A stretch of 64,000 nt of DNA from Hondaea fermentalgiana (taxonomy: Eukaryota > Sar > Bigyra > Thraustochytrida > Thraustochytriidae). A program made the position numbers and the translations under genes. The notes beneath the pieces were generated by a model. That model did not search any database, had not been told where the DNA came from, and worked only from the letters and a program-made list of their open reading frames with translations. Positions within the stretch are counted from its first letter, which is position 1, and the number at the start of each line of letters is the position of its first letter. Location of the stretch: the NCBI GenBank assembly GCA_014084085.1, contig NPFB01000018.1:134888-198887 (forward strand), written 5' to 3'. Positions 33,201 to 59,293 of this stretch are shown here, piece after piece.

Positions 33201-33787
33201 AAGTTCTTTACAAAGCCTGGAAGATTAGGCAGCTGCAACTTGTTGAGACCAGTCCCCGAGGACGATGCGCGGCCGTCGGACGCCTGTGAAGGGCTGCGCG
33301 TTGAGCGTCGCGCGCGGCTTCCTTGCATGCTCTGGAAATCCTCGGAGGTTGAGTGGTCGCCATCGTCTTCGGCAAAAAGATCGTCGTACGAGTTGAAAAA
33401 GTCGACAAAGTCGGCGGCGAGCTGCTTAATGAACTGCGCCTCTACCTCGCGGCGCAAAGTGTCTTTGCGCTTGCGAAGGCGCGATATGAGGTCCTCGCGG
33501 GACACATCGTTGTCCTTTTTGAACTCGAGGACCACAGAGACGTCCTCTATGAAGATCTCGGTCGTGCGCGAGGACAAGTGGAAGAGCGGGAGCGCGATAG
33601 AAACCTTGCCAAGGATTCCCTGCACGACTTTGACGGGGAACGAGCTCGGGATGGCTGTCTTCTTGAGCTGCACATTCTCCAGGTTGATGGTGTTGCCCGA
33701 CGAAAACAAATTAAGCACAAGCCCAAAGTCCGTCTCCACGAACTTGTCCAGCGCCTGGATCACGGCCTTGCGGATGAAGAACTCCAT
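21266..33787 (-). CDS. VPS13-like bridge-type lipid transfer protein
   Basis: Giant single-exon gene (4,173 aa). VPS13 proteins form long hydrophobic troughs that move lipids in bulk between membranes at contact sites. The N terminus MEFFIRKAVIQALDKFV and the following 110 residues match the chorein_N domain that begins this family. Middle and later parts include VPS13 adaptor-binding (SHR-BD) style sequence, for example LFAVSNLLPVPLLV near residue 2,170 and beta-rich repeats to about 3,200. Near residue 3,740 is a C-terminal region resembling the VPS13 C/ATG2-like segment. C2-like domains appear at about residues 678-790 (VIHVLEARALRKAQ), 2,490-2,640 (with an insertion) and 3,350-3,480 (VHVLEARGIG). 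Acidic and Ser-rich linkers separate domains. The last 30 residues are hydrophobic with almost no charge, which is unusual for the family. The start is the first ATG directly before the chorein motif; upstream codons in frame lack an ATG. Length is similar to or larger than animal VPS13 proteins. Confidence 0.9.
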   Translation of the reverse strand: MEFFIRKAVIQALDKFVETDFGLVLNLFSSGNTINLENVQLKKTAIPSSFPVKVVQGILGKVSIALPLFHLSSRTTEIFIEDVSVVLEFKKDNDVSREDLISRLRKRKDTLRREVEAQFIKQLAADFVDFFNSYDDLFAEDDGDHSTSEDFQSMQGSRARRSTRSPSQASDGRASSSGTGLNKLQLPNLPGFVKNLLGNIKIHVGNVHVRIEQAHDSSKEAPNRCEAIGICLQAIDVVSCNAEWQPGRCPSPEELFKLIRIHRLGCYVESEAPRAHLVPFKEVRNGRSVRVPTQLVSYFPHTWLLEPTSLTLRLAVRDWWPAPPKPYRPNIFLRVFVSPIKMHLHSVFIRTLAGMVNELDTWKQSIEDKVRTMDALNARDTMSLEEHATRCNRYKDRYYAFIHLTVIEHGSKSQKKKRLKALRAAEADVHLDDLASIWLEVLHRVHREDQSAAQTQQASSHPQGGPTHGQHEIKTGSPPDPSLASSLPSARPRAATASPATETSQKWARALGQTSSPVPSPLPSPSPSPPPQLAAPPQARNARNKRASVASMAPRLGSLASWDPSPPASPRGNSASSKPGLSRMFSVSQLNAAQHDHNDSLRFAALEEASFAISFDMSICVQEIEVRVSLSKFSDNAVLATLGTVAFSLRDHSSEDLTERRTAVDGKRLAGRISRPPQSQGLVIHVLEARALRKAQATYVVIRHKQEQHKTKTFSKVSNPIWNQGFHFTIPDLMSMRRIDIDIELWAVRDLQRDELVGSAILSFRTKHLRVGEMVDRWVELGGDGSSVHLCLEQHTADLPFLEENKLHAPRAVKLWPGRPAPTLWLGLWLGKVQLRSIATIETLNSLKRAAAESNHSPSENAADTGTRTPRTPGPTAGDTDKRMEVRDISLLRIEEGTNVLVIADRESLWAKVSQLFGFVDNVKTPSAPESLPSTPRSSFLEGARAAPASAHAHLPEESPGVLVDVLVQLAHTSVLFSRWQILFLLNQFQLLYLSEQSPTLAAPGSSATGAAGATAAGSPQKGRHGATSPVVPPFSPSSPVMQASSSATGSNPIKDENDLVAVGQRLRRILASNLRAVGVGDTRSETSSTTHLDSQVSRPWVIVTAGDLPFRFTCHVYATQVKAGFTWGDGSVSTFVGRAGEESKTVTYLVATEARISLHTYAHDESLDKEALRLTALVGSLGIMDSKRPDRPVLTRENHRNTDFHAQAARTLLPMVSVTIHMPYGWAYSLNFADRRALPPPDDLEGSLLLSVAVEDIAIETPALQYTLPALLGGIMPLVKLIEVPQLPSIAVVEFSTRFKSNITVYLAENIDSVYGSRAFYALTNLEGHYTARALESAEELEVNVDFGFGMCRLSRNSHAKSHTEMRRRRSSAEFTTTNSLPKEVDDMRNSRWKVSHRILSSFRVNAKLMLAIDELGEALLDAVFSAHPIVIYFWIQDMALLCSILLNFVNDGIALERQLDMILRFELPENLRTRFAIPTPNDGARDPDLDFIGFDDLDEGDASAASGPAAKVRNTGRSDHQRSSPARHSSGFGAYRMSSASMGSENAKTKSERRSQSEDFGQEASSREDKETSSITHSISAFPLLQVPFKHANANTVKTVSQERFLTLLAIIGHDDSPVLRLKWSLSWLWNDPNMSVGAQMALSYFNLKKAGWEPVLEPWHVHGSVITENVHRGLRNMKFRGAGVLAEEVMDIDISEEFVTTIVQLCIQGIRFLDQDSHGLVTSFYPLIDEEKKHRHGFELWNLTGETVLYQPVLEEDPDLVLDPRGRDMRLDCESRWDLNTPFEVLQDSRSAELGFWSSELDQNSSQRSSPEFMEDTMLPTRESDAKAILGGKWTKRDYIDTASREKKHRYIRIKFEDYDRSFQAYLVRVDRVGDYALRLGNGNVLRVSVGTRNGLVHKIKLLSTVSVANRTARDVWLSRSVNDEYRVYGLNVLRTMFCPLSMTDDELGLYYTVDATHDASKDGSAPGSSSRPLATVESEARLDSVDEAGEEKAGWSERMNTEGESRTISTPGARDASGASAHQGNGSRPESHGSAARNQRNQGSESRRDPGIGSKSRSSVLSSSGAELHINLHRIPRQKQTLILEAGNFLCAVEFEFHALDSMAGWIYLESGKRRDKNKKVTTDPVLRFEKLRPRWAAGIEFGMRSKEVRERRLMEKAARAHTLQAVQIVLKPLFAVSNLLPVPLLVSSVRRTGPRKDPKYVAPGGRYICDDTQIDAVQFKVPSEDTEWSLPIPLDVLAPSYIADRLRSLGHNHRELGPTLSSHLRVVKDEEENAETVLHQAAETVNAAARRATDSALVASREVLSRLEGDVETVAIFPPSPHGPPPNPATSPESIRAPGARQEDKDVVPKTRISGVRRMSTDKSLQSFHLRKHVVEKSLQPGTSASRSAKSQKKMNSKKTSNYGSDMAVLEAGRATHEEGVDASLLSARSNVMDAAGVASDGRNATGTTGSSNDLSVHEPSDVSFPLARRVHPSSLRSSQRRHVISVRVIESREGTQSTRTGETTPHARRDQDSQRTMGRPVGGAAGAPGVEMSNLARQPLAFRKLTLMFRQRVIGTREQMIEIAKNNQRSLLWEETINFMFDNIWQSKKQVPKKLYVQYIGVARFPHTFGAHASGRPKLLGIGCIDLAELLEEFSQGKLRRQRSTVQIHAISGPADDRTLVKESVLAEIDIDVRVLSRKAATAGFERMGEPGKASSAKHRGGGGGGGGRLDGDVVQDVEPDTDDEEFEVLSQVGSDVDSDVESWDSGEGHDEGIEESTRTSLLGNLGFARAVRKFGTNLTHRRRAEQEAIRQAISSQEKIKLIEQRLLGPFPENLEDHAKLDRILREFDGRRCPLALRCRISNAQDAGFRLSIHAPMWFKNESSVEAVVQSTQAGAASISVVPPKRSLLLDSDREMLQVALHRYGDKLSNVMQTKFTSPELYFKFKDVHSGRELLNVSQFVAAESRGAPNTLDTRVVKLWHSIYISNKTNVLLEFRATGAYRRMGSFTLQPELENFPWHYGSHQMQIRSRAFANRASQTTSEADVAVVGMDEMGHAISETVPSSDWSGLIDLKAEAFQENFVSLPIALFDTDGLPVRIIRIVVTRSTQAASTRFISFEMDDPPTYIVQNRSKRTIVVSQRENQSTNNAEDSLSVCENVLRPGDSATFGWTEPSQDRRQLLVRMVLRGKDKSDLLRQGYMRHISDDLAHAYKLDKVGKLKSYSLGHIELHANVEVVGSSRLIEVQCESTLRKKMTISELRKFHATTEAEAQERPAEGRGRRASTYSSLDEGLDGGERWAASSGLRSGHLDTTTRMRGMASSSDWATSPLSSSAAWPGARSAEQPGMNISPDDEELNEADEEHRYSISVHVLEARGIGAPRGQPAGYPRVVVHCGTQSNMTPEAEAPVQVAETGVESPSAAYVSQGQRKLAQGRPVGNVRWVHAPIRFDFDLVKPQLIRFEIVQPVVSGSSGQVRHERIGSVRLPIPASFYDRRDIAKFAPDWMSVNVGVAGGHQHTQLRFEMYFLTNESKDNQSVPRMLRVRMEGFGISIINSAQRREDLYGRVSGIDFGVQISDRGRISTTLRVRSLQVDNNQPLVQNRVCVVPTIKDVSVLELFFAIGYVGGNTVVVDNLQLVMQSLEVKIDEKFIDAILGVSKGLVDRKGELEVVVRRAKASVNGTFEGKRTTSFEFVEDMSAGETSVLLESDESGELVTEPVHRFFAGHSLQTINIASEVERILQSHVTLYVRNLHIYPIKITLSFFFKFGETDFITQYQRPAIAPIKGVIAGFGKWSDVVIRCGDVRETSLFADPVKIAKLLGTRYAIMLSKQSWKGIAALEILGNPQHFVDRVVGSLAALSTIPVQVFRERGLEQASAELGSCVASVMCTSVAAPLQLTWRVTGSIATILEGTRPIRHLGLPLRMLTTALQASQQGVEFFDPRHESVYPTRRPRTFNEHGLYEPIIGDDATTDRIAFVLRTHESDRSSEDEGNEGDTGIEAEEEDDVCNASSSGGADTRDDVVSEGSGASRTLHRATLDTLVSSPAPVQGSLLSLNSPFDLEESRPQNGFFEALESATETRSQANERQGSEKSVKKEGRWSRRSRSAFGSRGNLFFKSEPGLHAQADDQDAFIINVFDTKFSGLSQTAIDANAKSQFQINHSLHCCIMLMPGLNIIWLAIYILHCAGILEWF

Positions 33788-35848
33788 GCCGGCCAGCCCC
33801 GCCGCCCCCGCGCCCGCGCGCGGCGCTCGAGGCTCTCCGCGCCGCCGGCCGGGTTTGCTGCGATGCGATTCAAACAAAACGGAGTCACACTATAGGCTCT
33901 CCTCCCCCTGCCTCGGTACCGGTATCCCGCGGTCCCAGTATTCGGGACGCAAATTCCCTAGTACCGCGCTTTTTTTTCTTTTCTTTTTTTCTCGCGACGC
34001 CAGCCAGGCCTAGTTGTAGCCTAAACAGGGACCCGACGGGGGGGGGGGGNNNNNNNNNNNNNNNNNNNNNNNNNNNNNNNNNNNNNNNNNNNNNNNNNNN
34101 NNNNNNNNNNNNNNNNNNNNNNNNNNNNNNNNNNNNNNNNNNNNNNNNNGGCTGCCACCGAGGCCTGGCCCTCCGCGCGGCACGACAGCGAGGGTGGCCG
34201 CGCGGGGAGCCTCCCTCCCTCCCTCCCCGCTCGCCCGCTCGCTCGCGCGCTCGCTCGCAGCCGCCTTCGCTCGCAGTCTCTGCGCGCCGCGCGTGCTCTG
34301 GGCAGGCCTGGCCTGGCGTCACGATGCCGTGCCGCCGCCGCGCGCGCCCCGGGCGCAGGTCGCTGCCGAGAATTGCGGCCTGTGTCGGTCAGTAAACCAT
34401 CGAGGCCAGCTCGCGCGTGCGCACGCGTGAGTGGAGTGGCCGCTCCTTTGGAGTTGCCGCGCGAGGGGCTTGAAAATATGGCGGCAGCGGATCGCAGCGG
34501 ATGAAGAAGGAAAGTTAGTAGAGCGAGGCGTGGGCAGGGAGAAGCGGGGTCGACCGCGCAAAGTCTCGCGCTGTCGGGACGTGGACGGGTGGAGCGACGG
34601 CTGCGGATGGGTGGCGGCGGAGCGAGCGGCGACGAGCAGCGGAGGCGGCGGCGCGAGCGGCCGCGTGCACGCGGTCAGCGCCGGAAAGAGACTCATTTAG
34701 AGGAAGCAAGTTGAGGAACAGGAGGGGAAGGAAAGGTGATCTTGTCTTGAAGATCATTTCTTTGGTTTGTTTGTTACTGTTAGTTATGTAGCCATGCGAG
34801 CTCCACTGCAGCTGCTGCGAGGCTGGGCGACGCGATGCGAGTCCACCTGGCCCGGCGAGGCAGGATCGACAGGAAAACGTGACGGGGCAGCAGCCTGACA
34901 AAAGTTCTCTCGCCGCCGCTGCTCTGCTGCTTTTGACGGCATGGTCGGAAGAGCACCTGGCCAAAGGACAGTCAATGGGTGGTCGCTCGCTTGCTCGCAA
35001 ACTTGCGCGGCGGGCAAAGCCGAGTGGCTCAGCCGGCAGGGCTGGTTTTCTTTCTCAAGGTTAGCTTGTGGACATGTCAGTAACAATCGCTGTCGGCAGT
35101 GTGACCCCCGTCACCACAGCTGTGCCGGCCGGAGGAAGACGAAAAAGTAATCAAGGAAGAAAGAATGGGAAGAAAGGGGAGAAGGAGTCTCTCGCGAAGT
35201 ATTTTTCCAACAGAGAGAATGAGGGAGGGAGAGAGAGAGACCTTTATGGAAGAGAAAAGCGCCGTAGGAGTTCCGGCCTGCTGCCCGGCCGCGCGTGCCG
35301 CGCTGCCGCCTCCTCCTCCTTCTTGCGTCGCTAGCCTCTGCTGCTGCAATCAGAAGGCGACACGCGCGAGGACCTGACAGCGACAGCGAGTTGCTCAGGG
35401 CCAGTCACAGTCGGGCCGCTGGCCGGCCGGCCGGCTGACCGACCGACCGACCGACTGCCTGCGGCCGATTGCGACGCGCGGTCCGAGCAGCGCGAGCAGC
35501 AGCAGCTATTTCCGCCGCCAGGCCGGCGCAAGCAACAGCAGCAAGCAAGCAGCAAGCAAGCAGCAAGCCAAAAAAGAAATAGAAAAAAAGGAAAAAGGAA
35601 AAGAAAAGGGCCCTTGGGCCACGAGCGGGTGGAGCCACTCACTCACTGATCAGCCAACCTCGGCACGCGAGGGCGACAAAAAGTAAACATAGAAGAAGGA
35701 CTGGTCACAAGCACCAAGTCAAGACTGGACCAGGCAATCCGCCGGTGCCGGGCAGGACCGGGCAAGCAGCAGCAAAACCAAAACCCGAAACGCAAGACTC
35801 GAGCACAAATCAAGACTCGAAGAAGCAGTAGACACAAGAGAGCGCAGC
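33788..35848. other. divergent intergenic region with assembly gap
   Basis: Region between the VPS13-like gene (-) and the first NhaC-like gene (+). It contains a G-run, a 100-N gap, CTCGC repeats near 34210-34275, a purine-rich tract near 35150-35260, and GCAAGCA/AAAAGG simple sequence near 35535-35610. It must hold both promoters. No further gene is supported. Confidence 0.5.
34050..34149. other. assembly gap, 100 N
   Basis: Exactly 100 N bases following an eleven-base G homopolymer at 34039-34049. The gap size is a placeholder. Confidence 0.99.
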
Positions 35849-38137
35849 ATGAGGGCTGCTACAGCGGCATTAAGCATGGCCGCCGCGGCGATGGCGGCCG
35901 TGGCGCAGGCGGACACGATCATGTACGCGCCGAGCATCGACGAGGTGAGCATGGGCTACGATACGCTCTTCAAGGACGAGGAGTTTGACGTCACCGCGGC
36001 TATCTCGTGGGGCGACCTCGACGCTGCGTACGCGCAGGGCGACTACCTGTACTGGCGTCTCTCTGTTAACGGTGCCGCTTTCAGCTCTGGCAGCGAGCTG
36101 ATCAACGCCTCGCGCGTTCTGCTCTCGGAGATCACCGCGACGGGCGTGACCTCGGAGCTCGGTACGACAACCGCGACCATGGAGGTCTCTTTGGACGCGA
36201 GCTTTGCGGACGAAGACGTGACGTCGAGCGGCGAGGCCTCGGCGCAGGCCATCAACGCCGGCGCCTCGGTGGTGCCCCTCATCATTGTTCTGCTGGTGGC
36301 CATTTTCCTTCGCGACGTGCAGGCCAGTCTCTTTAGCGGCATCTTCATTGGCGCCTGCATGACGGCCGGCGATCTCCGCACGGGCTTTATTGACACCTTC
36401 GCCACGTACCTTGTCAATGCCGTGGCGGATGCCGATCATCAGTTTGTTATCCTGTTCTCGCTCTTCCTCTCGGGCGTTGTCTCGATGATGCAGCGCTCGG
36501 GCGGCACGCGTGGTCTGACTTCGCTCATGATCCGCTACGCCAAGACGAGCCGCACCGTGCAAGTTCTTGCCTTCTGCAGCGGTCTCTTGCTGTTTTTTGA
36601 TGACTACACCAACTCGCTCGTCATCGGTAACACGATGCGCCCGATTCTCGACAACTTTGTCAGCCGCGAGAAGACGGCCTGGATTACGGATGCCACCAGC
36701 GCCCCGATTGCCAGCATTTCGCCCATTTCCAGCTGGGTTGGCTACGAGGTGTCGCTCATCCAGACGGAGATCGACCGCATTGTGGAGACCAACGGCGGCA
36801 CGGCCCCGACGGGCCTCCCCACTAGCGGCTACGCCGTCTTCCTCTCGACCATTGCGTACAGGTATTACCCGATCTACCTCATTGTCTTTCAGCTCAGTCT
36901 GGCGATTATGCAGCGCGACTTTGGCCCCATGCTCATTGCGGAGCGCAAGATTTACATTTCCGGCCGCAAGGACGGTGGCGAGGGTGCCTTCGAAGGCGGC
37001 GGCCACCTGCAGCAGGTCAAGGTGCGCTCGTCGACGCCGGCGCGCGCGTGGAATATGCTTGTCCCCGTGGCCATTCTCGTGATTCTTGTGTTCTACATTC
37101 TGGTGGAGACGGGCCGCAGCTCGACGGGCGCCGACGCTGACTTTCTCGATGTGATCCAGGCCTCCGACTCGTACACGGCGCTCTTGATCGGCACTGTGGG
37201 CACAGCGGTGTGCATCGCTGTCTTTTACGCACTCCAGTTCACCAAGGACGGCGAGATGACCTTGCCGACGGCGCAGTCTTTCAAGGACATGTTGCCCAAT
37301 CTCTCGTGCTTTGGCGACAAGGAGGAACCCAAGCCCAAGATGGACAAGGTTGGCTCGGTCGCCTCTTACAATGATGATGGCGAGGAGGAGGACATTGTCG
37401 ATCCCTCGGCAGGCCCGCGCATGCTCATGTCGCCCATGGACTCGTTCACGACCTTTGTCAACGGTCTTGTGCACCTGTTCCCAGCCATCATTGTGCTGGT
37501 CCTCGCATGGACGGTGGGTAGCATTATGACGACTGTTGGCGCCGACCGTCTGTTCGCACGCGCCATTACGGGTGGCAGCCTGAACGTGGGCTACCTTCCA
37601 ACGCTGACCTTTACGATTTCGTGCATCATGGCCATTGCCCTTGGTTCCTCGTGGAGTGTCATGACGATTGTCTTTCCTCTTGTGACCCAGCCTGCGTGGG
37701 AGGCGAGCAACGGCGACTTGAACATCTTTTATGGCACCATGGGCGCCGTCTTGGCCGGCTCGGTGATGGGCGACCACTGCTCTCCCATTAGTGACACCAC
37801 GGTGCTCTCGTCGATGGCGGCGGCGTGCCGTCTCGACGCACATGTGCGCACGCAGGCTCCCTACGCTCTCCTCGTGGCGCTCATCTCTCTCTTTTGCGGC
37901 TGCATGCCCGTGGGCACGGGTGGCTACTCGACGGGTGTGGGCATGGGCATTGGCTCCATTGTCACCATTGTTCTTGCCTTTTTGCTCACTGCCCCCGTGC
38001 GCTGCGCGTCAGGCCGTCTCGACCCGATGACCGAGCTGTACTTGCTTATTACCAAGGACGAGGGTCTGGCCGAGATCAAGACCGAGACTGCGCGTACTTA
38101 TGCGGAGAAGACCTCGGCCGTCTCGTTGGACATTTGA
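35849..38137 (+). CDS. NhaC-family Na+/H+ antiporter-like membrane protein, copy 1
   Basis: Predicted cation/proton antiporter of the NhaC superfamily (762 aa). A signal peptide spans about residues 1-21, ending AVAQA before DTIMYAP. A soluble domain of about 110 residues follows, presumably luminal or extracellular. The transporter core starts near residue 135 (VVPLIIVLLVAIFL). Family signatures are LFFDDYTNSLVIGNTMRP near residue 249, SSWSVMTIVFPLVTQP near 607 and GDHCSPISDTTVLSS near 640. About ten or more hydrophobic segments can be read, with a charged cytosolic loop near residues 487-528. The family is best known in bacteria, where members exchange Na+ or organic acids for protons. The substrate here is unproven; Na+ export would suit a marine cell. 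A close paralogue starts about 3.8 kb downstream on the same strand. Confidence 0.88.
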   Translation: MRAATAALSMAAAAMAAVAQADTIMYAPSIDEVSMGYDTLFKDEEFDVTAAISWGDLDAAYAQGDYLYWRLSVNGAAFSSGSELINASRVLLSEITATGVTSELGTTTATMEVSLDASFADEDVTSSGEASAQAINAGASVVPLIIVLLVAIFLRDVQASLFSGIFIGACMTAGDLRTGFIDTFATYLVNAVADADHQFVILFSLFLSGVVSMMQRSGGTRGLTSLMIRYAKTSRTVQVLAFCSGLLLFFDDYTNSLVIGNTMRPILDNFVSREKTAWITDATSAPIASISPISSWVGYEVSLIQTEIDRIVETNGGTAPTGLPTSGYAVFLSTIAYRYYPIYLIVFQLSLAIMQRDFGPMLIAERKIYISGRKDGGEGAFEGGGHLQQVKVRSSTPARAWNMLVPVAILVILVFYILVETGRSSTGADADFLDVIQASDSYTALLIGTVGTAVCIAVFYALQFTKDGEMTLPTAQSFKDMLPNLSCFGDKEEPKPKMDKVGSVASYNDDGEEEDIVDPSAGPRMLMSPMDSFTTFVNGLVHLFPAIIVLVLAWTVGSIMTTVGADRLFARAITGGSLNVGYLPTLTFTISCIMAIALGSSWSVMTIVFPLVTQPAWEASNGDLNIFYGTMGAVLAGSVMGDHCSPISDTTVLSSMAAACRLDAHVRTQAPYALLVALISLFCGCMPVGTGGYSTGVGMGIGSIVTIVLAFLLTAPVRCASGRLDPMTELYLLITKDEGLAEIKTETARTYAEKTSAVSLDI

Positions 38138-41137: not shown

Positions 41138-41927
41138 CTGCAACGCCGCGGCTCGAACCCCGCGCGCCCGCTTGCTCGCTCTGTCGCGCGCTGTTGCTCG
41201 CACCGCTTGCGCGCACGCTCGCACGCTCGCACGCCCGGACGCACGCACGCGCAGGGCAACGCCGGAGCCCACTTTTGAGGCGGAGCGCCGCGTCCAGGCC
41301 TCGCAACAGGTCGGGCCCAGCTGCCAAGCCACCACTGCCGGGCGAGCGGAACCCACTGCGGCAGCCAGCGCCAGCCTAGCGCGAGGGACAGACACGGAGC
41401 GGAGCGGAGCAAAGGCATCGCGGAGCAACGGAGAGCGTCACGGCGCCATTGCTTTGATCTTGCATTTATTATAGCTGTAGGTTGGCCGAGCCGACGCACG
41501 CAGTGCAACAGCCAGCTGCAGACGCGGACGAACGAGCGCGCCACGCGAACAGCCAGCCAGGGCTAACTTTTATTCGACAGACGAGGAGACAGACCAAACA
41601 GGACAGACGAGCATTGATTCATCCATCCATCCATCCATCTGTTCGTCGGCCGGCGCCAAGCAAAAGCAAAAGCAAAAGCAAAAGCAGGAGCAAAGCAAAG
41701 CAAGTTGCGACGCTGACGCACGCTCCCTCGCATCGCACCGCACGCACGCACGCACGCACGCTCTCTGGCTACTTTTTCCGCACTGCCGCAGAGACAGAGT
41801 GGGAGAGAGTGAGAGAGAGAACGCAGAGAGGAAGACAGGGGAAACAGGAAGGAAGAAAGGAAGAAAGGAAGGAGCGACGCGCAGCAGACAAGCCCGGCCA
41901 GCGACCACCGAGACCAGCAGAACTGGA

Positions 41928-44447
41928 ATGCGAACAGCTGCGGCGAGGAAGACTGCGAGCAACAGCAGCAAGAAGATGATGATGGTGTCGGCGATGCTGG
42001 CCACCGCGGCCATGACGCTGATGCTGGCCACCGCCGCGCGGGCCGAGCCTATCCTGTACGCGCCCAGCGCCTCGGTGGAAATCGAGTACACGACGCTCTT
42101 CAGAGACGAGGCCTTTGCCGTCACGGCCGCGCTCGAATGGAGCGAACTCGACGCAGAGTATGCCCAGGGCGACGCGCTCTACTGGCGCCTCTTTGTGGAC
42201 GGACAAGAGTACAGTACGGGCTCCGAGGCACTCAACGAATCGCGGATCCTCCCCGACAGTATCGACATGGGTGACGTCACTGTGGATCACACGGGACTCG
42301 TTACCGTGAGCGCCGACCTCTCGCTGGACAGCACCTTTGCCGACGCAGACGTGACCACCAGCGGCGACGCCTCGGCCCAGGCCATTAACGCCGGCGCGTC
42401 GATCGTCCCGCTCATCGTTGTGCTCTTTGTCGCCGTCACTCTGCAAAAGGTGGAGATCGCCCTCGTCCTGGGCATCTTTGTGGGCGCCTGCATGGTGGCC
42501 GGAGAGTTGCGCCAAGGCTTTATCGACACCTTTCAAACCTACCTGCTCGAGGCCGTCGCAGACAGCAGCCACCAGTTTGTCATTCTCTTTTCGCTCTTCC
42601 TCTCGGGCCTTGTGGCCATGATGCAGCGCACTGGCGGCATGGACGGTCTCTCCGCCACCATTGTCAAGTTCGCACGCAATGCGCGCTGGGCGCAGGTCAT
42701 CGCCATGGCCAGTGGCATCCTCATTTTCTTTGACGACTACACCAACACGCTCGTGATCGGCAACACAATGCGCCCTATTCTCGACAACTTTGTCAGCCGC
42801 GAGAAGACGGCATGGATTACTGACGCCACCAGCGCCCCGATTGCCAGCATCTCGCCCATCTCCAGCTGGGTCGGCTTTGAGGTCTCGCTGATCCAGACGG
42901 AGCTGGACCGTATCACAGAGAGCAACGGCGGTACGAGCCCCGAAGGCCTCCCCTCCAGTGCCTATGCCATCTTTCTCGAGACCATTGCATACCGGTACTA
43001 TCCGATCTACCTCATTGTCTTTCAGCTCAGTCTGGCGCTCATGCAGCGCGACTTTGGCCCCATGCTCGTCGCGGAGCGCAAAGTCTTCATTTCGGGTCGC
43101 ACCGATGGCGGCGAAGGCGCCTTTGACGGCGCCGCCGGCCTCACAAATGATATCCAGCCGAAGAAGGGTGTCCCCCGCTACGCATACAACATGCTCTTGC
43201 CCATTGCTGTTCTGGTCCTCCTCGTGTTTTGGGTATTGGTCACCACGGGCCGCAGCGCCTCGGATGCGGACGCTGATTTCCTCACTGTGATTCAGAACTC
43301 GGACTCGTATTCGGCGCTCCTCATTGGTACGGTGGGAGCCGCAGTGTGTGCCATGGTCTTGTACATGTTGCAGTTCGTCAAGAATGGCCACCTGGCAATC
43401 CCGACGCCCCGTGGCCTGTGGGAGCTCGTGCGCCCGTGCAAGTCTAAAAAGGAGACGACGACCTCCTCCTCCTCGTCTTCGTCCAAGGGCCCCGAGGCGA
43501 CCGAACAGGCTGTCGACGACAAGGTCGCTGCCGGCAAGACCCTCTCGGAGGAGGACACTCGCGGCGCTGCCAGCAGCAACGGTGCCGAATCGGCTGACGG
43601 TGACGCAACGATGAATGACGACATTGCACGCCCGCTCCTGTCGCCGGTGGAGAGCTTTGAGTACTTTTTGATGGGACTTACCACGCTCTTTCCGGCCGTA
43701 ATTGTCCTCGTCCTCGCGTGGACCATGGGATCAATCATGACGACCGTCGGGTGCGATCGTCTGTTTTCGCGGGCCATCACCAGCGGCCTCAACGTGGATT
43801 ACCTTCCCACTATTACCTTTATTATCTCGGCATTTATGGCTATTGCCACGGGCTCGAGCTGGTCCGTCATGACCATTGTCTTTCCGCTCGTGACGCAGCC
43901 TGCTTGGATTGCCAGCGACGGCGACCTCAACATCTTTTACGGCACAATTGCTGCTGTTCTGGCCGGTTCGGTGCTTGGTGATCACTGCTCGCCCATTAGC
44001 GACACGACCGTGCTCAGCTGTTTGGCCAGCCGTTGCGACCTCCAGCGCCATGTGCGTACCCAGGCCCCGTACGCGCTCACTGTGGGCGTCGTTAGCATCA
44101 TTGTCGGCACTATCCCCGTGGGTGTGGGTTCGTACTCGACGGGTGCTGCGATGGGTGTCGGAATTGTCGTCACCATTGTCCTGTGCTTTATTATGAGCGC
44201 CCCCACGCGTGGCGCGAGCGGTCGTCTTGATCCTTTTCTCGAACTTTACCTGCTCATCACAAAGGATGCCAAACTTCGCGAGCTCAAGGAAGCGACTCGT
44301 CGCGCCGCCTCGGAGGACCAGTCCACTTCGGCCGGGTCTGACGCACATCTCTACGAGGGCAACGACGAGGTCGAAGACGCTGACGCTGACGCATCTGCGA
44401 GCAGTAACAGCAACAATGACGGCAACAAGGCCATTGCTTCTGTGTAA
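41928..44447 (+). CDS. NhaC-family Na+/H+ antiporter-like membrane protein, copy 2
   Basis: Paralogue of the preceding transporter (839 aa) with the same plan: a basic n-region, a hydrophobic signal sequence ending TAARA before EPILYAP, a soluble domain of about 110 residues, and an NhaC core. It repeats the signatures FFDDYTNTLVIGNTMRPILD near residue 266 and GDHCSPISDTTVLSC near 683. The central cytosolic loop (about residues 505-570) is longer than in copy 1 and is Ser- and acid-rich, and the C-terminal tail ends in an Asp/Ala/Asn/Ser low-complexity stretch. These two regions are the main differences and may set regulation or location. ATG codons at 41928 and 41976 both leave the signal sequence intact; I chose the first. 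Longer frames upstream would need a GTG start. Ion specificity is not visible. Confidence 0.88.
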   Translation: MRTAAARKTASNSSKKMMMVSAMLATAAMTLMLATAARAEPILYAPSASVEIEYTTLFRDEAFAVTAALEWSELDAEYAQGDALYWRLFVDGQEYSTGSEALNESRILPDSIDMGDVTVDHTGLVTVSADLSLDSTFADADVTTSGDASAQAINAGASIVPLIVVLFVAVTLQKVEIALVLGIFVGACMVAGELRQGFIDTFQTYLLEAVADSSHQFVILFSLFLSGLVAMMQRTGGMDGLSATIVKFARNARWAQVIAMASGILIFFDDYTNTLVIGNTMRPILDNFVSREKTAWITDATSAPIASISPISSWVGFEVSLIQTELDRITESNGGTSPEGLPSSAYAIFLETIAYRYYPIYLIVFQLSLALMQRDFGPMLVAERKVFISGRTDGGEGAFDGAAGLTNDIQPKKGVPRYAYNMLLPIAVLVLLVFWVLVTTGRSASDADADFLTVIQNSDSYSALLIGTVGAAVCAMVLYMLQFVKNGHLAIPTPRGLWELVRPCKSKKETTTSSSSSSSKGPEATEQAVDDKVAAGKTLSEEDTRGAASSNGAESADGDATMNDDIARPLLSPVESFEYFLMGLTTLFPAVIVLVLAWTMGSIMTTVGCDRLFSRAITSGLNVDYLPTITFIISAFMAIATGSSWSVMTIVFPLVTQPAWIASDGDLNIFYGTIAAVLAGSVLGDHCSPISDTTVLSCLASRCDLQRHVRTQAPYALTVGVVSIIVGTIPVGVGSYSTGAAMGVGIVVTIVLCFIMSAPTRGASGRLDPFLELYLLITKDAKLRELKEATRRAASEDQSTSAGSDAHLYEGNDEVEDADADASASSNSNNDGNKAIASV

Positions 44448-52143: not shown

Positions 52144-54099
52144 TCATTGCACGAGCTTTGCGAGAACCTTGAGCCCTGGAGTGGCATCCTTGCCGGAAGT
52201 TGCCTTGAGAGCAGAGGCGCACGCTTTGTTTGACTTGAGCTCTGCCTTGACTGCATCTGCCGTGTCCGGGTGCTCGACGAGTGCAACAAGGAGAAAGCAC
52301 GCCGCGTTGACGCCGATCAGCGAGTCGACGCGGGGCTGAAGTAAATCCCAAAGGCGCTGTGCAAATCCTGCGCGATCATTGCCCTCGCGCGCCCCTTCGG
52401 CCACAATCAGCCGCTTCAGCGTGCGCTGCTCCAAAGGCTTCTCTACAATTTCAGGCGCAGCCTTGACCACCTCGAGCAGTTCATCCATGAGTGAGGACGC
52501 CCAAGAGGCAGCCATGACCTCGACGAGAAGCTCTGCGCCATGCGGATGTGGGAGACTGGCCTCCACCGATCCTTCGAGCGCCTTCGCCAGAGGGAATGCA
52601 GTAGCGTCGCGGAGTTCAGAAACACGGGCCTCCGGATCCTTTTTCGAGGTGCCTGGCGCCGGTTGAATCGCCTCAAAGTCAACGCGACGAAAGTAACGAT
52701 TCACCTTGGATGTCAACGTCTGCATGTACACCAGCCGTGCCGATGTTGTCGCGTCGGGCACCTGCACCGAGGCCACCAGCCTCTCGAGGACATTCTCCTC
52801 AAGAATCTCAGGAAGAATGCTCTTTTTCAGGAGCACGGTGTCATCAAGCACGTTGATGAGCGAAGCCAGAGCAAGAAAGCCAAACTCGTGAAAACACAGG
52901 TTCGCAGCATGACCCTTGAACACGCGAACGTACTTTTTCCGCTCCTTGGCGCTGGCGTGGGCGATGCAGCGTGCCACAGCGTATGCGCCATCCGCCGTCG
53001 AAATCATCGCCAGCGAGGCCTCCGCCACAAGCGGGACCAGCTCCGTAAGGATCGCGGTCTCTTCCGCGCTACCCGCCTCCGCCTCTGCTTTGTCAGCATC
53101 GCCTTCGTCGTCGCCGCCCTTCTTTGCGGTCTTCGTTTTCGCCTTGGCCGCGCTGCCATCGTCGTCGCCGATTTTTAACTCTGCGATATTCAGCTCGCAC
53201 CTCTCGACGAGGGCGCGCGCAATCGAGTGGGCAAAGCCGAGACGCAAGATACCCTTTTCTGCCTGCTTCGTCACGATGCGATGCATGCTCGCCAGGGCTG
53301 CACGCCTACGCTTCATGTTCAAGTTTGCGTACATTTTGGCCTCTGTCGGCGCCGCGTCTGCGTTCTCTTGGCCGAAAATGGCGAACTCGGGGCCGCAGAA
53401 TTCAAGTCGCAGCTTGCTCAGCACCGCCGGTACGGATACCAAGACGGGCCCGGCGTCACCCGCGCCCTCATCGGAGGACTTGGCAGACTTCTTGGCCCGT
53501 TTCGCGGCGCGACCACGCTTCGTCTTGGCCGCGTCCACATTGCAGTGCGTAAAGGCAAAGTCGAGCACGCGGGATCCGCAGTTGTGCGTCGCCAGTCGCG
53601 ACATGTGGCCGCGGAGCTCGTTAAGCACCTTGACGCGTTGCGCGTCGCTACCATATCGAAGAAGTGCAATCACTAAAAAGCAAGAATACTTGTCCTTGGA
53701 GAGCGAGACCATCTTGCCCTTGAGCTCCTCGAGGATGGACTCGCGCATCTCCTCGTTACCAAAGCGGAAGCAAACCTGGACACTTCGGCAGGCGTCGTGC
53801 TTCATGGCAAACTTGAGCATGCGGCCCTTAAGCGAAGCATAAATCTCCTTCACCTCGGACCCGCGCTCCTCGTCCTCATCGTCTCGGAGCGCGGAAGCGG
53901 TGCGCTTGTTGAGCTCTTTGACGGTCTCGCTCAGGTCCTCGGCACCGCGGTTCTGAATCCAAACGCCATCCTTGCTATGCTTGTCTAGCTTTTGCTGGCC
54001 CTCCTCGGCCTCGGGCTCCGTCTTCGCCTTCTTGCTCTTGCCCTTGGCCTTGTCGTCGCCCTTGCTCGTGGGCCGCTTCTTGGAGCCCTTCACGGCCAT
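52144..54099 (-). CDS. PUM3: PUM3/Puf6-type pumilio-repeat protein with CPL domain
   Basis: Nucleolar RNA- and DNA-binding protein family required for large ribosomal subunit assembly (human PUM3, yeast Puf6). Length here is 651 aa, almost identical to the human protein. A Lys/Arg-rich start (residues 1-30, nucleolar-type signal) precedes PUF-like helical repeats from about residue 90: GRMLKFAMKHDACRSVQVCF, GKMVSLSKDKYSCFLVIALL, GHMSRLATHNCGSRVLDFAF. A Lys/Ala/Asp low-complexity insert lies in the middle (about residues 310-345). The C-terminal third fits the CPL domain (EKPLEQRTLKRLIVAE, NAACFLLVALVEHPDT). The start is the only ATG before the basic segment; the frame runs 105 codons further upstream only from a TTG. 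It is divergent with the wybutosine fusion gene, which also acts on RNA. Confidence 0.9.
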   Translation of the reverse strand: MAVKGSKKRPTSKGDDKAKGKSKKAKTEPEAEEGQQKLDKHSKDGVWIQNRGAEDLSETVKELNKRTASALRDDEDEERGSEVKEIYASLKGRMLKFAMKHDACRSVQVCFRFGNEEMRESILEELKGKMVSLSKDKYSCFLVIALLRYGSDAQRVKVLNELRGHMSRLATHNCGSRVLDFAFTHCNVDAAKTKRGRAAKRAKKSAKSSDEGAGDAGPVLVSVPAVLSKLRLEFCGPEFAIFGQENADAAPTEAKMYANLNMKRRRAALASMHRIVTKQAEKGILRLGFAHSIARALVERCELNIAELKIGDDDGSAAKAKTKTAKKGGDDEGDADKAEAEAGSAEETAILTELVPLVAEASLAMISTADGAYAVARCIAHASAKERKKYVRVFKGHAANLCFHEFGFLALASLINVLDDTVLLKKSILPEILEENVLERLVASVQVPDATTSARLVYMQTLTSKVNRYFRRVDFEAIQPAPGTSKKDPEARVSELRDATAFPLAKALEGSVEASLPHPHGAELLVEVMAASWASSLMDELLEVVKAAPEIVEKPLEQRTLKRLIVAEGAREGNDRAGFAQRLWDLLQPRVDSLIGVNAACFLLVALVEHPDTADAVKAELKSNKACASALKATSGKDATPGLKVLAKLVQ

Positions 54100-54162
54100 T
54101 CTCGCTCGCGGCCTTGCCGCAATCACCTCGTCTAATTCGTCGCGACGCTTCTGACGCCGTCT

Positions 54163-54220
54163 CCGCGCAAGCTCTTCGCGCGAGAAAGTCACCGCGCAAG
54201 CTCTTCGCGCGAGAAAGTCA
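54163..54220. repeat. 29-bp tandem duplication with TTCGCGCGAGAA cores
   Basis: Two exact adjacent copies of a 29-bp unit. Each contains the near-palindrome CTTCGCGCGAGAA. It begins 64 bp upstream of the PUM3-like start codon, so it probably lies in its promoter or leader. Confidence 0.9.
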
Positions 54221-54419
54221 CCGCGCACCGCGTGCGCCAGGGGTTTGTTTCGTCTCGTCTCGACTCGACTCGAGTCGCCTCGAGTCTTGTCGTCTCGTCT
54301 CCAGCTCCGGCGCGCCAAGCAAGACTCCCGCCACCCGTTCTGCGCACCAACTATTCTGCACTTGAGGAGCGAATTCTTCACTTTGCGAGGTCTCGACAAG
54401 AGGAACTTTCCCAATTCTG

Positions 54420-54428: not shown

Positions 54429-54718
54429 CAAATCAAATTGGGTGTATTCTCGCAGCATACACCCCGGAGGCACTTGAATGCCACTTCTAACGAAGGCAAA
54501 CCAGGGGGCTCCAACGGACTATGCGCATGGCCATTCGTGGGGATGCCAGGTCGAGGTTAGCAAGGAAGGGAAGGACCTTGGCTGTCAGAACTCGCGGCAC
54601 AGGCGCGCCTCGAGCGAAGGCAGCGCGGGGGAACGCGCGAGGGAACGAGGTCAGACATCGCTCGGACCCGCAAAAGGGCTTCTTCACGGTCGACGAAGCG
54701 TCATTCTCTCTCGCGGAG

Positions 54719-57700
54719 ATGGCTCACGAACTGGCGCTCGAGACCGCGTACGCGAGCTTGCAACATCAGAAGCAACAGTTTGACGCCTACAAACGCAGCA
54801 TCCTCGCCGAGCTAGCGGACGTGGGCACCGACGCGTACTCAGACAAGTCTCCAAAGGGGTCGCTGGATGCCGCGATTGTCGAGCTGGTGCGAGACATCAA
54901 CGCAAGTCGCGACTATGTTACGACGAGTTCCTGCTCCGGTCGGGTAAGTCTATTCTACGAAGGAGGCAGCAGTAGCAACACCAGCGCCAGCCAAGATCCG
55001 CTCGAACACAAGGAAAAGTCTGATTTGCAAACACCACAGGCTCCCCGCAAGGGTCAGGGACGCTGGCTTGGTGTGAATCATGACCGCGCACTCTCACGTC
55101 AGGAAGTTCTCGATATGCTTGCGAGCGTGCCTCCGCAACAAGGCGGCAGGGCCGTCCTTAAACACGAACCCTTTGTTCTGCATGTCCAATGTAGGGACGA
55201 GCGCAGTGCGCAGGCCTTGCTTCGTGTCGCAATGGACAGCGGCCTGCGTGAATCTGGGCTTTCGTTGGGACAAAAGAAGATCATGCTTGGCATCCGGACG
55301 CTCTCAAATGTCCTCGAAGTCCCTGTTTTGGTGGACGGCCGCCAAATTCTATCAGAAGACGCGCTCGGCGTCATGTGCGATGTGGCCGCTGAGAAGTTTC
55401 GCATTAATTGCGAACGTCGCGCCGCCTTCCACGCCAATGTCGCTGCTTTTCTTCGCAACGCCGACTCTTCGCCCGTCCCCGAGTACCCTCGCTCCGATGC
55501 GAACGGCTTGCGAACGTCGACACGGAGCTTGAACCCGCAGCAGGAACGTCAAAAGGAGCGTAGGCGCCAAAAACAAGCCTCTCTTTCCCGTGCTCTCGAG
55601 TGGAAGGAAGTTGGGGCTGGCGCCGATCTCTTGCAGAGATGGGGACATGCGTCCGTGCCTCTCCCGGACGGCTCGGCCGCTTTGGTGTTTGGTGGATTTG
55701 GTCCATGCGATGGAACCTCACACGAACGGCGTAACGATCTCATTTTAGTGTGTCGGAACACGGAGGAGAATGGCAGCAGCTTTCTTTGCGAACGTCTCCA
55801 AGCCGAAGGAGAACCTCCCTTGGCTCGCATCAAACACGCTGCGTGTTGGCTTGACGCAAGTCACGCGTTGTGCATTTCTGGCGGTCGTCAGTCTCCTCTT
55901 AAGGCGCTTAGTGACCTTGCGCTTTTTCATTATGATCAACGCCGCTGGGTTCCAGTCCAGACATCGGGCGCATGGACACCGCGTTGGAGTCATACCATGG
56001 TCACTGCTGGTGAGCACGCCATAATTTTTGGTGGGCGCGATGCCAAGAGCGTGATGAGCGATACAATCATGATCACGATCCAGGATGCCAGCGCCAAGGT
56101 GTCCTTGCTCGAGTGCCATGGCGGGGCTTCTGTGGTAGGTCGATTTGGTCACTCGGCCGTTACGACGAACCAAGGGGACAAAATGGTCATATATGGCGGC
56201 TACGCGAGAGTGGGCGAGAATGACGACGACGAAGCTGTTCCTACGCAGCACATGCTTGGCGACGTTCAGGTTCTCGAAATCTCAACCCGAACTTGGTCGA
56301 CGGTGTGCGCGCATAGTCCGAGCTCCTCAAGATTTTCGCACGGGGCTGTAGCTCTGGACGATGACCGCATGCTCGTTGTTGGCGGCGTTGGCATTGAGTA
56401 CCGCGACAATGGGGCGAAACTTTTGACGCTGTCGACGGGTCAATGGGACGTTGTCCGGTCCTCCGAAACGTATGGCGCATCGTGGGCTCCGCAAGCGATG
56501 CAGCAAAAGTTTAGCCTCATCAAGCTGCAGCAGGGCTCGCAGCTCGACTTGCTCTCGCTGGGAGGCGGTAATCTCTGCTTCTCTTTTGGCTTTTGCTTTG
56601 GCAAGTCGTCGCATGCCGATGCGAGCTGGATGCTCACGCACGATTTTGTGCCCGACGCACTTGCGATTGAGGCCAGCGAGGCTAAGGTCGCCAAAGTTTG
56701 TCTCGAAAAGGCAAAGCTTTACGACCGCTCACGCAAGATCGTTCCGTACTTGCACAATGGACGTGCTGCCCTTATGGCAATTCCCGTCCCACAAGATGCA
56801 ATTGCGCGGGTCGAAGCGCTCATTCAGGACGGACAGCTCGGTGCCGCCAACCTTGTTCACTGTCCTGCACCCCCTTTAAAGAACGGCGCCGCCCCCGCCG
56901 CATCCACCGCCGCCGCGGCCAAGGCTGAGGGCACTTCAGCCTCCGCAAAGTCCCAGAAAAAGACTGAGAAACCGAAGAAGAGTGTGCCGAACAAAGAATC
57001 GCAAGTCAAATCAAAGGCTTCAGACGCGACAATTGCCGGACTGGGCGTCAGTGTTGCGGCATCTGCATGCAAATTGTGCAAGTCGGCCTTGGAGCAAGCT
57101 GGCCTGTATGACAAGAGCCGGCGCGTAGGGAAACTAGCGAGTGGCATGATGGGCGTTCCCGTGCGGGGTTCGCTCGAGGCTGCAACCGCTGCCTTGGCCT
57201 CGGTAGGTGTGGAACCTGCAGAAACCTCGTCTAGCATGATGCTCCCGTGCTCGCCCGTTCCGAAGCAACAAGTTGGGTCCAAAAAGGCGCGCGCTGCCAA
57301 TGGAAACAGCCGGCGCGCTGGTATCAAGGAGCAACTTCGGGTATGGGTCGAGGGTCTCGTCACTCGCTCGCCGAGCCTCGAGCTCCCCTCGGCCGAAGTA
57401 ATGCGAAGTGAACTCCCGAAGCGCGTCGAGGTTTTGGGGGATGTAGCAATTGTGCCTCGAGAGGCCTTCCGCACCGACCAAGTCTGGGCGCCCATCATTC
57501 ACGCCGGTGAGGAGCGCGTTCAAGACTGTCTTTGGGCCATGATTGCTTCATTGACAGGTGCCAAGCGCGTTCTGTTGCAGCGCAAGATTGACATAGGCGT
57601 GAAAAGGCAAAGTCGTGCCACCATGGTCTATCCACGACAGCATCCCGACACCGCGGTCATGGTCAAGCAGAACGGTGTCACGTATTGGTTTGACATGGAA

Positions 57701-59293
57701 CGGTGTATGTTTTCGTCGGGCAACATTTCCGAAAAGCAGCGTGTGGCCAAATTTCCATGCCGTGATGAGGTCGTTGTTGACATGTTCGCAGGCATTGGGT
57801 ACTTTACGTTGCCCTATCTGGTCAAGGCAGGCGTGGCGCATTTGCATGCTTGTGAGTGGAACGCCGACGCACTCGCAGCGCTGCGCAAAAACCTTGCGTT
57901 GAACAGTGTTGAGGACCGCTGCACCGTTTATGCCGGGGATTGCCGTGTCTCGGTGGAGAAGTCGCTTCGCGGCATCGCAGACCGCGTGAATCTTGGACTT
58001 ATACCGTCGTCTCGGCCATTTTGGCCAACGGGGGTACAGGCACTGCACGAGACTCGGGGTGGCTGGCTTCATATTCACGAGAACGTTGTTCGCAAGGAAT
58101 GCGACGCCTTTGTCAAGGACATGCTGGCCGAGATCCAGGCTCTTCTTCCTGAGGGCTGGACGGCAGCGTGCAACCATGTGGAGCGCGTCAAATCGTACAG
58201 CCCGCACGTCGATCACATTGTCGCAGATGTTCGCTGCGGGCCAATTGATGAATTAAACGCCGGCGAACTTCAGGGCGGCGCCTCGTCTCAGATTGCATCA
58301 GGAGAGCTTTCTCGTGTTTTGCGTGTGCCAAGGAGCGATGAACGCGATCCGTTGCCGGTGATCCGACGTCCATACCCCAGGAGCGCCCAGGAGGCGCAGG
58401 AGATTATGGCAATGGATAGACCTGTTGTCCTCACTGGCATTCCATCATGGTCATCGTCATTTTGGAAGCTGGAGGCCTTGCAGGAGTTCTGCGCAAGTCA
58501 CACCGACACTGGCAACACCAAGGTGAGCGTTCACGTCGCTGATGATGCGCACTTGAGTTTTGTGAACAAGTCCTTTCGGTTTCAGGTAACTGAACTGCAA
58601 GCGCTTTTACATGCCGTCGCACAGAACGACGCCAAGCCCATGTACCTTCGCGCAGTCGGTCCAAACCCGCGCAAAGACCGTGCGCATTTTTGGCGTGATT
58701 TTGCAGAGCTGGCTAAGGCGTCTGGTCTGGGGCAACCCGATGAGTTTGTCGATGGTGATCGCGCGAAAATCTTCTCGTCTGTTTTTCGTGTCGCTTCTGC
58801 CGGTCTGCAGCTCTGGACTCACTTTGATGTAATGGCAAACGTCCTTTACCAGCTGCATGGGTCAAAGCGTGTTGTCCTGTTTCGCCCCGAGGATGTTGGG
58901 TGCCTCGACATGCGGCAAAGCGTGAGCGCGGTGGTGGACATTGATGGTCAGCCGTCCGACAGTCTTTTTGGTCAGGCTCGTGTCCGGGCCATGGAAGTTC
59001 ATCTTGAAGCCGGGGAGGCTCTCTATATTCCAGCACTCTGGCCTCACAATGCACGGGCCAAGACAGCAAGTGTGGCTGTCAATGTGTTTTGGCGGTCCCT
59101 TGACACGAGCTTTTACGGCGCCAAAGATCTCTACGGAAACCGAGATCCCCTGCCCGCGGAGCGAGCACTTGCTCTCGTCCAAGAGGCCAGCGATCTCTTG
59201 GGCGCGGCGCAAGACAATGGAAATGTTTTGCCCTGGCAATTCCGTCAATTTTACGCACACATTGCCGCCGGGAAGTTATTGCAAAATGCATAG
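54719..59293 (+). CDS. wybutosine biosynthesis fusion: TYW3-Kelch-TYW2-TYW5 (JmjC)
   Basis: Multi-enzyme chain (1,524 aa) for the hypermodified guanosine at position 37 of tRNA-Phe. Residues about 1-240 are TYW3, an N4-methyltransferase (SPKGSLD at 44, TTSSCSGR at 68). Residues about 300-580 are five Kelch blades (VFGGFG, CISGGR, IIFGGR, VIYGGY, VVGGVG). Two similar segments of about 60 residues near 653 and 780 share LYD(R/K)SR. TYW2, the aminocarboxypropyl transferase, runs from about 870 to 1,180, with SAM motif DMFAGIGYFTLPY at 1021. A JmjC oxygenase from about 1,230 to the end has Fe ligands His1368 and Asp1370 (THFD) and His1443 (LWPHN). Its ending, FWRSLDTSFYGAKDLYGNRD, resembles TYW5, the wybutosine hydroxylase. 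Plants fuse TYW3-Kelch-TYW2; the added hydroxylase is unusual. TYW1 and TYW4 are not in the window. An in-frame ATG at 54521 would add 66 Arg-rich residues; I chose the later one because it already covers the whole TYW3 domain. Confidence 0.92.
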   Translation: MAHELALETAYASLQHQKQQFDAYKRSILAELADVGTDAYSDKSPKGSLDAAIVELVRDINASRDYVTTSSCSGRVSLFYEGGSSSNTSASQDPLEHKEKSDLQTPQAPRKGQGRWLGVNHDRALSRQEVLDMLASVPPQQGGRAVLKHEPFVLHVQCRDERSAQALLRVAMDSGLRESGLSLGQKKIMLGIRTLSNVLEVPVLVDGRQILSEDALGVMCDVAAEKFRINCERRAAFHANVAAFLRNADSSPVPEYPRSDANGLRTSTRSLNPQQERQKERRRQKQASLSRALEWKEVGAGADLLQRWGHASVPLPDGSAALVFGGFGPCDGTSHERRNDLILVCRNTEENGSSFLCERLQAEGEPPLARIKHAACWLDASHALCISGGRQSPLKALSDLALFHYDQRRWVPVQTSGAWTPRWSHTMVTAGEHAIIFGGRDAKSVMSDTIMITIQDASAKVSLLECHGGASVVGRFGHSAVTTNQGDKMVIYGGYARVGENDDDEAVPTQHMLGDVQVLEISTRTWSTVCAHSPSSSRFSHGAVALDDDRMLVVGGVGIEYRDNGAKLLTLSTGQWDVVRSSETYGASWAPQAMQQKFSLIKLQQGSQLDLLSLGGGNLCFSFGFCFGKSSHADASWMLTHDFVPDALAIEASEAKVAKVCLEKAKLYDRSRKIVPYLHNGRAALMAIPVPQDAIARVEALIQDGQLGAANLVHCPAPPLKNGAAPAASTAAAAKAEGTSASAKSQKKTEKPKKSVPNKESQVKSKASDATIAGLGVSVAASACKLCKSALEQAGLYDKSRRVGKLASGMMGVPVRGSLEAATAALASVGVEPAETSSSMMLPCSPVPKQQVGSKKARAANGNSRRAGIKEQLRVWVEGLVTRSPSLELPSAEVMRSELPKRVEVLGDVAIVPREAFRTDQVWAPIIHAGEERVQDCLWAMIASLTGAKRVLLQRKIDIGVKRQSRATMVYPRQHPDTAVMVKQNGVTYWFDMERCMFSSGNISEKQRVAKFPCRDEVVVDMFAGIGYFTLPYLVKAGVAHLHACEWNADALAALRKNLALNSVEDRCTVYAGDCRVSVEKSLRGIADRVNLGLIPSSRPFWPTGVQALHETRGGWLHIHENVVRKECDAFVKDMLAEIQALLPEGWTAACNHVERVKSYSPHVDHIVADVRCGPIDELNAGELQGGASSQIASGELSRVLRVPRSDERDPLPVIRRPYPRSAQEAQEIMAMDRPVVLTGIPSWSSSFWKLEALQEFCASHTDTGNTKVSVHVADDAHLSFVNKSFRFQVTELQALLHAVAQNDAKPMYLRAVGPNPRKDRAHFWRDFAELAKASGLGQPDEFVDGDRAKIFSSVFRVASAGLQLWTHFDVMANVLYQLHGSKRVVLFRPEDVGCLDMRQSVSAVVDIDGQPSDSLFGQARVRAMEVHLEAGEALYIPALWPHNARAKTASVAVNVFWRSLDTSFYGAKDLYGNRDPLPAERALALVQEASDLLGAAQDNGNVLPWQFRQFYAHIAAGKLLQNA

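Follow-up and report, generated by a model that had tools for sequence, protein, structure and literature searches.

A putative four-part wybutosine enzyme joining TYW3, Kelch, TYW2 and TYW5-type domains in Hondaea fermentalgiana

In the wybutosine pathway, as outlined in PMC3386263, PMC4682802 and PMC7694415, TYW2 adds the acp group, methylation by TYW3 yields yW-72, which is hydroxylated by TYW5, and methylation and methoxycarbonylation of the side chain fall to TYW4. The Arabidopsis protein At4g04670 is described in PMC2956550 as a fusion of Tyw3, Tyw4c and Tyw2; the same source reports that no wybutosine derivatives were detected in that plant, and refers to studies of wheat wybutosine. 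According to PMC4417183, the TYW4 of Trypanosoma brucei, which is compared there with that of Aspergillus oryzae, carries a JmjC extension similar to TYW5, and hydroxywybutosine was measured in T. brucei, so that the fusion of a TYW5 domain with a second wybutosine enzyme has a precedent in a product-making lineage. Human TYW5 (C2orf60; PDB 3al5 and 3al6) stands alone, without TYW2, TYW3 or Kelch.

The window analysed here, a stretch of 64,000 nucleotides of the thraustochytrid Hondaea fermentalgiana, contains a gene (54719..59293, + strand, to which the coordinates of all its parts refer) with a single open frame of 1524 aa plus stop, in which Pfam recognises, from the N to the C terminus, the domains TYW3, Kelch, TYW2 and TYW5-type JmjC. 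The first three follow the order of the plant TYW2/3/4 protein (At4g04670) and are homologous to it over all three parts, which bears out the plant-like base proposed in an earlier note on this DNA, whereas none of the six plant proteins compared (P0063-P0066, P0069, P0073) has the JmjC/TYW5 domain that the four-part chain carries. The TYW4-TYW5 fusion of T. brucei and A. oryzae, as described in PMC4417183, likewise bears a C-terminal TYW5-type JmjC domain on a Kelch-bearing wybutosine enzyme, but there the partner is TYW4 (LCM methyltransferase and Kelch) rather than TYW3-Kelch-TYW2; our example of this fusion, P0006, is annotated as tRNA methyltransferase ppm2 of Cladophialophora chaetospira, with an LCM domain scoring 18.9 bits, below the Pfam cut-off of 22.3. 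Human TYW5 has the JmjC domain, the iron ligands, the tail motif and the fold in common with the chain. The proteins P0081 and P0084 also possess an N-terminal TYW3 and a C-terminal Cupin_8 domain, but Kelch and TYW2 are not recognised in them by Pfam and their JmjC domain belongs to another group, while in P0033, P0037 and other TYW5-like proteins TYW5 is joined to a TYW2_N-like piece, but without the TYW2 transferase domain. The four-part chain is a TYW2/3/4 fusion with TYW5 added, and extends the plant and fungal fusions without being a new type of system. No published description of a TYW3-Kelch-TYW2-TYW5 chain was found among the titles and opening abstracts of the open-licence literature, and an earlier report elsewhere is possible. 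From sequence and predicted structure we consider it likely (probability about 0.8) that this one gene encodes a multifunctional wybutosine enzyme which would carry out acp transfer, then N4-methylation and then hydroxylation, and whose Kelch propeller probably derives from TYW4.

The reading frame and the TYW3, Kelch and TYW2 parts

An in-frame upstream ATG at 54521 would extend the frame to 1590 aa; the starts of three aligned relatives lie within about 20 residues of the start of the shorter form (54719). Judged by base composition alone, the log10 probability that a frame stays open for so long is about -25, and the TYW2-JmjC junction displays no break in GC content by codon position. Stronger proof of the join than the stop-free run is its conservation: six proteins, this one among them, share the four domains and their order, which makes the join real. 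The four-part chain in one uninterrupted frame, as the earlier note had read it, is therefore confirmed by the Pfam order, the 1524 open codons and this recurrence.

Elsewhere in the window, a PUF-repeat protein with a CPL domain is encoded at 52144-54414 (- strand), divergent from the four-part gene and separated from it by a gap of about 300 bases. Two same-strand frames (35849-38137 and 41799-44447) both match the Na+/H+ antiporter family PF03553, and a frame of 4203 aa (21266-33877, - strand) shows VPS13-type matches and a C2 domain, its VPS13_N match of 71.1 bits being below the Pfam cut-off of 80.

The TYW3 methyltransferase domain (residues 25-241; 54791..55441) matches PF02676 at 5.7e-48, covering nearly the full model (profile positions 3-209 of 211) with 163.5 bits against a cut-off of 27. 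Its SPKGS and TTSSCSGR stretches are invariant across four chains, and the four-part gene provides the only TYW3 match in the whole genome.

The Kelch propeller (residues 309-556; 55643..56386; PF24681, 2.4e-45) is probably derived from TYW4, by analogy with the Tyw4c part described for Arabidopsis At4g04670 (PMC2956550). A closing motif, GGGNLCFSFG, identified by motif comparison, lies at residues 615-624 (56561..56590); motifs of this type are present in all six four-part chains and in the fungal TYW4 P0006 and in none of nine unrelated Kelch proteins, but also in none of the six plant chains examined. A Kelch profile ranked the TYW4 protein P0006 lowest among ten proteins and could not separate TYW4 Kelch from other Kelch domains, and against the PDB yeast Ppm2 ranks just 16th of 17 matches. 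An LCM-type methyltransferase domain is absent from the four-part chain in the Pfam scan.

Between the Kelch and transferase domains lie two TYW2_N-like segments. The second copy (about residues 777-830; 57047..57208) matches PF25132 at 4.2e-5, with a score of 24.2 bits that is under the curated cut-off of 27.8, and the first copy (about residues 648-705; 56660..56833) resembles the second, with 0 of 1000 shuffles scoring as high. The tandem occurs in P0001, P0002 and P0003 (0/1000 shuffles as high in each), while a motif scan found one copy each in P0004 and P0058 and none in P0059.

The TYW2 acp-transferase domain (residues 893-1172; 57395..58234) contains a TRM5-TYW2_MTfase Pfam match at residues 982-1123 (1.9e-27). 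In the PDB, structures of PH0793 (3a25 at 8.6e-23, another at 1.1e-22) and of MJ1557 outrank the Trm5 structures, the Trm5-type MJ0883 reaching 1.4e-9; among the NCBIfam models those for Taw2 come top (2.3e-28), yet under their archaeal cut-offs. These matches assign the transferase domain to the TYW2 type rather than to Trm5. For human TYW2, PMC3386263 reports that changing K225 or E265 abolishes activity, that both residues are essential in a yeast rescue, and that changes of Y242, F248 and D293 leave the enzyme active. The spacing of human K225, Y242, F248, E265 and D293 (17, 6, 17 and 28) fits K1006, F1023, F1029, E1046 and D1074 of the chain, the proposed equivalence of K1006 and E1046 resting on the residue spacing given in that source. 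In a model of residues 840-1524 the bodies of the TYW2 and JmjC domains are well predicted and the linker between them (residues 1182-1207; 58262..58339) poorly (pLDDT below 50, predicted disordered); the pTM of 0.49 means that no fixed packing of the two domains is predicted.

Proposed mechanism and the rest of the pathway in the genome

The substrate would be G37 of tRNA-Phe, on which Trm5 and TYW1 would first make the tricyclic base. The TYW2 domain would then add the acp group, and N4-methylation by the TYW3 domain would produce yW-72. This would be the substrate of the TYW5 domain at the C terminus, a predicted Fe(II)/2-oxoglutarate JmjC oxygenase that would turn it into undermodified hydroxywybutosine; in the pathway these are the three middle steps. 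The Kelch domain, probably the propeller part of a TYW4, is likely to bind the tRNA or a methyltransferase partner, and the last modifications may be made by an LCM-type enzyme encoded separately. We infer every activity, the order of activities on the chain and the handing-on of the tRNA; judged from the sequence, hydroxywybutosine is a plausible product. A more extended scheme is tentative and rather doubtful: a single polypeptide would perform all G37 steps between 4-demethylwyosine and the hydroxylated product, with the tRNA passed among three active sites, and, if a TYW4 methyltransferase-Kelch gene is lacking, the pathway would end at undermodified hydroxywybutosine or a separate LCM-type methyltransferase would dock on the Kelch domain.

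The assembly searched for the remaining components comprises 36.0 Mb in 238 contigs. It contains two tRNA-Phe genes, with anticodon GAA and then G37, and two TRM5-TYW2 places above the family cut-off, the four-part gene and L010, whose sequence reads as Trm5. Three LCM places were found (L014, L015, L016), in whose open frames, as read by eye, no Kelch part is visible; L015 scores 154 bits with human LCMT1, 97 with yeast Ppm2 and 87 with yeast Ppm1, and may be LCMT1 or a separate half of TYW4. A TYW4 methyltransferase-Kelch gene was not found in the genome, and neither was TYW1 with four queries: by eye, the seven radical-SAM places comprise MOCS1A, BioB, CDK5RAP1, CDKAL1, two Elp3 and an RlmN-like frame, none of them recognised as TYW1, and TYW1 was not seen in the six flavodoxin places read out of seven (L047 left out).

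The chain could be a relic, intact in a lineage that has lost TYW1 or TYW4, with little or no substrate or a truncated product; the unsuccessful TYW1 search and the three LCM places without visible Kelch are what such a loss would leave. We regard this as improbable. The four domains and the key residues are conserved in relatives at 60% (P0002) and 42% (P0003) identity to this chain, which argues for continued selection. Moreover, the control gene lipA, which is present in most eukaryotes, was likewise not found in the genome (a weak match only, at the BioB place), so that the search misses expected genes and the missing TYW1 or TYW4 gene carries little weight.

Two loci met in this search are recorded in their own right. 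The RlmN-like radical-SAM frame, identified by eye, lies at L024 (C184) of this eukaryote-like genome, and L050:2730-7115 (C166) holds a frame of 1462 aa with three consecutive flavodoxin domains followed by FAD- and NAD-binding reductase domains.

Assignment of the JmjC domain to the TYW5 type

The C-terminal domain (residues 1209-1523; 58343..59287) is assigned to the TYW5-type JmjC oxygenases by its match to human TYW5, its predicted fold and profile scores. Pfam reports Cupin_8 at residues 1224-1462 (1.7e-30), and when the whole chain is compared with the PDB, human TYW5 comes first (3al5; 159.9 bits, 5.8e-46). The AlphaFold2 model of residues 1200-1524 has a mean pLDDT of 91.5 and a pTM of 0.89; a Foldseek search with it places human TYW5 at ranks 1-6 (TMq 0.75-0.83), followed by FIH at rank 7 (TMq 0.58), with JMJD5 chains at about 0.60. 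The predicted iron ligands are H1368 (58820), D1370 (58826) and H1443 (59045), the residues named in the earlier note, and the His-x-Asp and distal His are invariant in alignment A2, which has 20 invariant columns over its 22 TYW5-like rows (two of which are the window's own sequence and one P0006). With a TYW5 profile the four-part gene scores about 425 bits, a value helped by the presence of its own domain among the ten TYW5-like domains of the seed, and other frames of the same genome at most 59.6 bits, a clear separation in a comparison that covers all 24 Cupin_8 places found by the genome search. No second TYW5-like domain occurs among these 24 places, where intron-split genes could be missed, and a second, stand-alone TYW5 in the genome is on this ground rejected.

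A JmjC oxygenase of another family, such as an FIH-like or JMJD5-like protein hydroxylase, attached by chance and making no hydroxywybutosine, would be compatible with a fold common to several families, with the weak PDB matches over the JmjC region (25 bits for FIH, 22 bits for JMJD5), and with a JmjC tree of 51 rows in which 47 TYW5-like rows, P0006 included, are set against four own-genome paralogues with a support of 91/90 that is not starred, the branches of the four paralogues and P0006 being very long. Against it stand the 159.9 bits with human TYW5, the six leading Foldseek ranks held by that protein and the 20 invariant columns. We consider this explanation very improbable, and an origin from another JmjC family is rejected on the PDB match, the own-genome profile scores and the predicted fold. 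By sequence and model, the JmjC domain is of the TYW5 type, in agreement with the hydroxylase proposed in the earlier note.

One argument of that note has to be abandoned. It had held that the C-terminal sequence follows TYW5 and not the TYW4-type domain, but the tail columns D1470, Y1472, G1473, N1474 and D1476 do not vary among the 22 rows in A2, P0006 included, and TYW4-TYW5 fusions are described in PMC4417183; since a fungal TYW4-JmjC protein shares the tail motif, the tail fails to tell TYW5 from TYW4.

Relatives and origin of the fusion

TYW3, Kelch, TYW2 and Cupin_8 occur together in at least six of the 47 proteins examined (P0001-P0004, P0058, P0059), with identical domain order in the six full-length four-part proteins, this one included. 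At least 18 of the 47 contain TYW3, Kelch and TYW2 without a listed Cupin_8, among them the six plant proteins, the oomycete P0061, Blastocystis P0070 and P0005, and at least two (P0081 and P0084) combine TYW3 with Cupin_8 but give no Pfam match for Kelch or TYW2; these counts are lower bounds, about 8000 candidates sharing most words having been scored. P0005 is a three-part protein with other domains behind: it spans 2482 aa and carries acetyltransferase and PhyH-type oxygenase domains after TYW3-Kelch-TYW2, which may be another oxygenase fusion or a joined gene model.

The architecture is also found in a related protist. P0003 bears the label MMETSP0098, which is a strain of the clam parasite QPX according to PMC6011583, where four QPX transcriptomes are listed. 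P0003 stands for four member sequences, which may be those of the four QPX strains. The parasite is Mucochytrium quahogii, classified in the taxonomy under Labyrinthulomycetes, Thraustochytrida. A full four-part frame is thus present in a QPX transcriptome, so that the refuting outcome named in the earlier note, two separate transcripts, is countered for this relative, as distinct from the present genome.

A tree of 26 rows built on the TYW3-Kelch-TYW2 part unites five of the four-part chains in a clade with starred support (100/97) and leaves the placement of P0059 undecided; a constraint that keeps the six in one group gives a slightly better tree and is not rejected (p-AU 0.545). In the JmjC tree the six four-part domains form a group with P0007, P0008 and P0009 (93/87, not starred), and an exclusive clade of the six is rejected (p-AU 0.029) because these three fall among them. 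P0009 is a gene call of 387 residues whose start reads as a TYW2 C-terminal tail, and so resembles a fragment of a four-part gene; among the three, such a tail is seen in P0009 only. Most likely the fusion arose once, by C-terminal addition of TYW5 to a TYW3-Kelch-TYW2 protein such as plants and other stramenopiles possess, a single origin being the simplest reading and not proven. A common JmjC origin with P0081 and P0084 was rejected (p-AU 1.65e-8), as was a grouping with the fungal TYW4 P0006 (p-AU 0.00245), the sole fungal row and a very long branch.

Further domain combinations were seen among the relatives. P0081 has a CCHC knuckle, and the intervening stretch of P0081 and P0084 may, by eye, be a decayed TYW2 transferase. 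P0023, P0024, P0027 and P0035 combine an aldo/keto reductase and a TYW5-type Cupin_8 domain in one predicted protein. A TYW2_N-like segment lies ahead of the JmjC domain in the TYW5-like proteins P0033, P0036, P0037, P0039, P0046, P0049, P0051, P0052 and P0054: a TYW2_N-like profile built here matched 9 of 25 N-terminal pieces of TYW5-like proteins at E < 1e-3, the best of 500 shuffled pieces reaching E 0.61, and a Pfam scan of four of the nine recognised no TYW2_N.

That two neighbouring genes or an assembly error were read as one, with TYW3-Kelch-TYW2 and TYW5 made separately, is the least credible alternative, since the disordered linker at 1182-1207 that would suit it is outweighed by 1524 codons without a stop, by the same join in six proteins (P0003 and P0059 being EukProt records with transcript-type labels) and by the TYW2 tail ahead of JmjC in P0009, and a chance join or assembly artefact is rejected on the six homologous chains.

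Read as one multifunctional enzyme, the chain adds TYW3-Kelch-TYW2-TYW5 to the joinings of wybutosine enzymes represented by TYW3-Kelch-TYW2 in plants and TYW4-TYW5 in fungi and trypanosomes, and this repeated joining of consecutive steps suggests that wybutosine enzymes work as a physical assembly. From the chain one would expect bases of the hydroxywybutosine type in a protist group where the open-licence literature searched gave no report of them. With three catalytic domains in one chain, the handing-on of the tRNA from one step to the next would be testable with a single purified protein.
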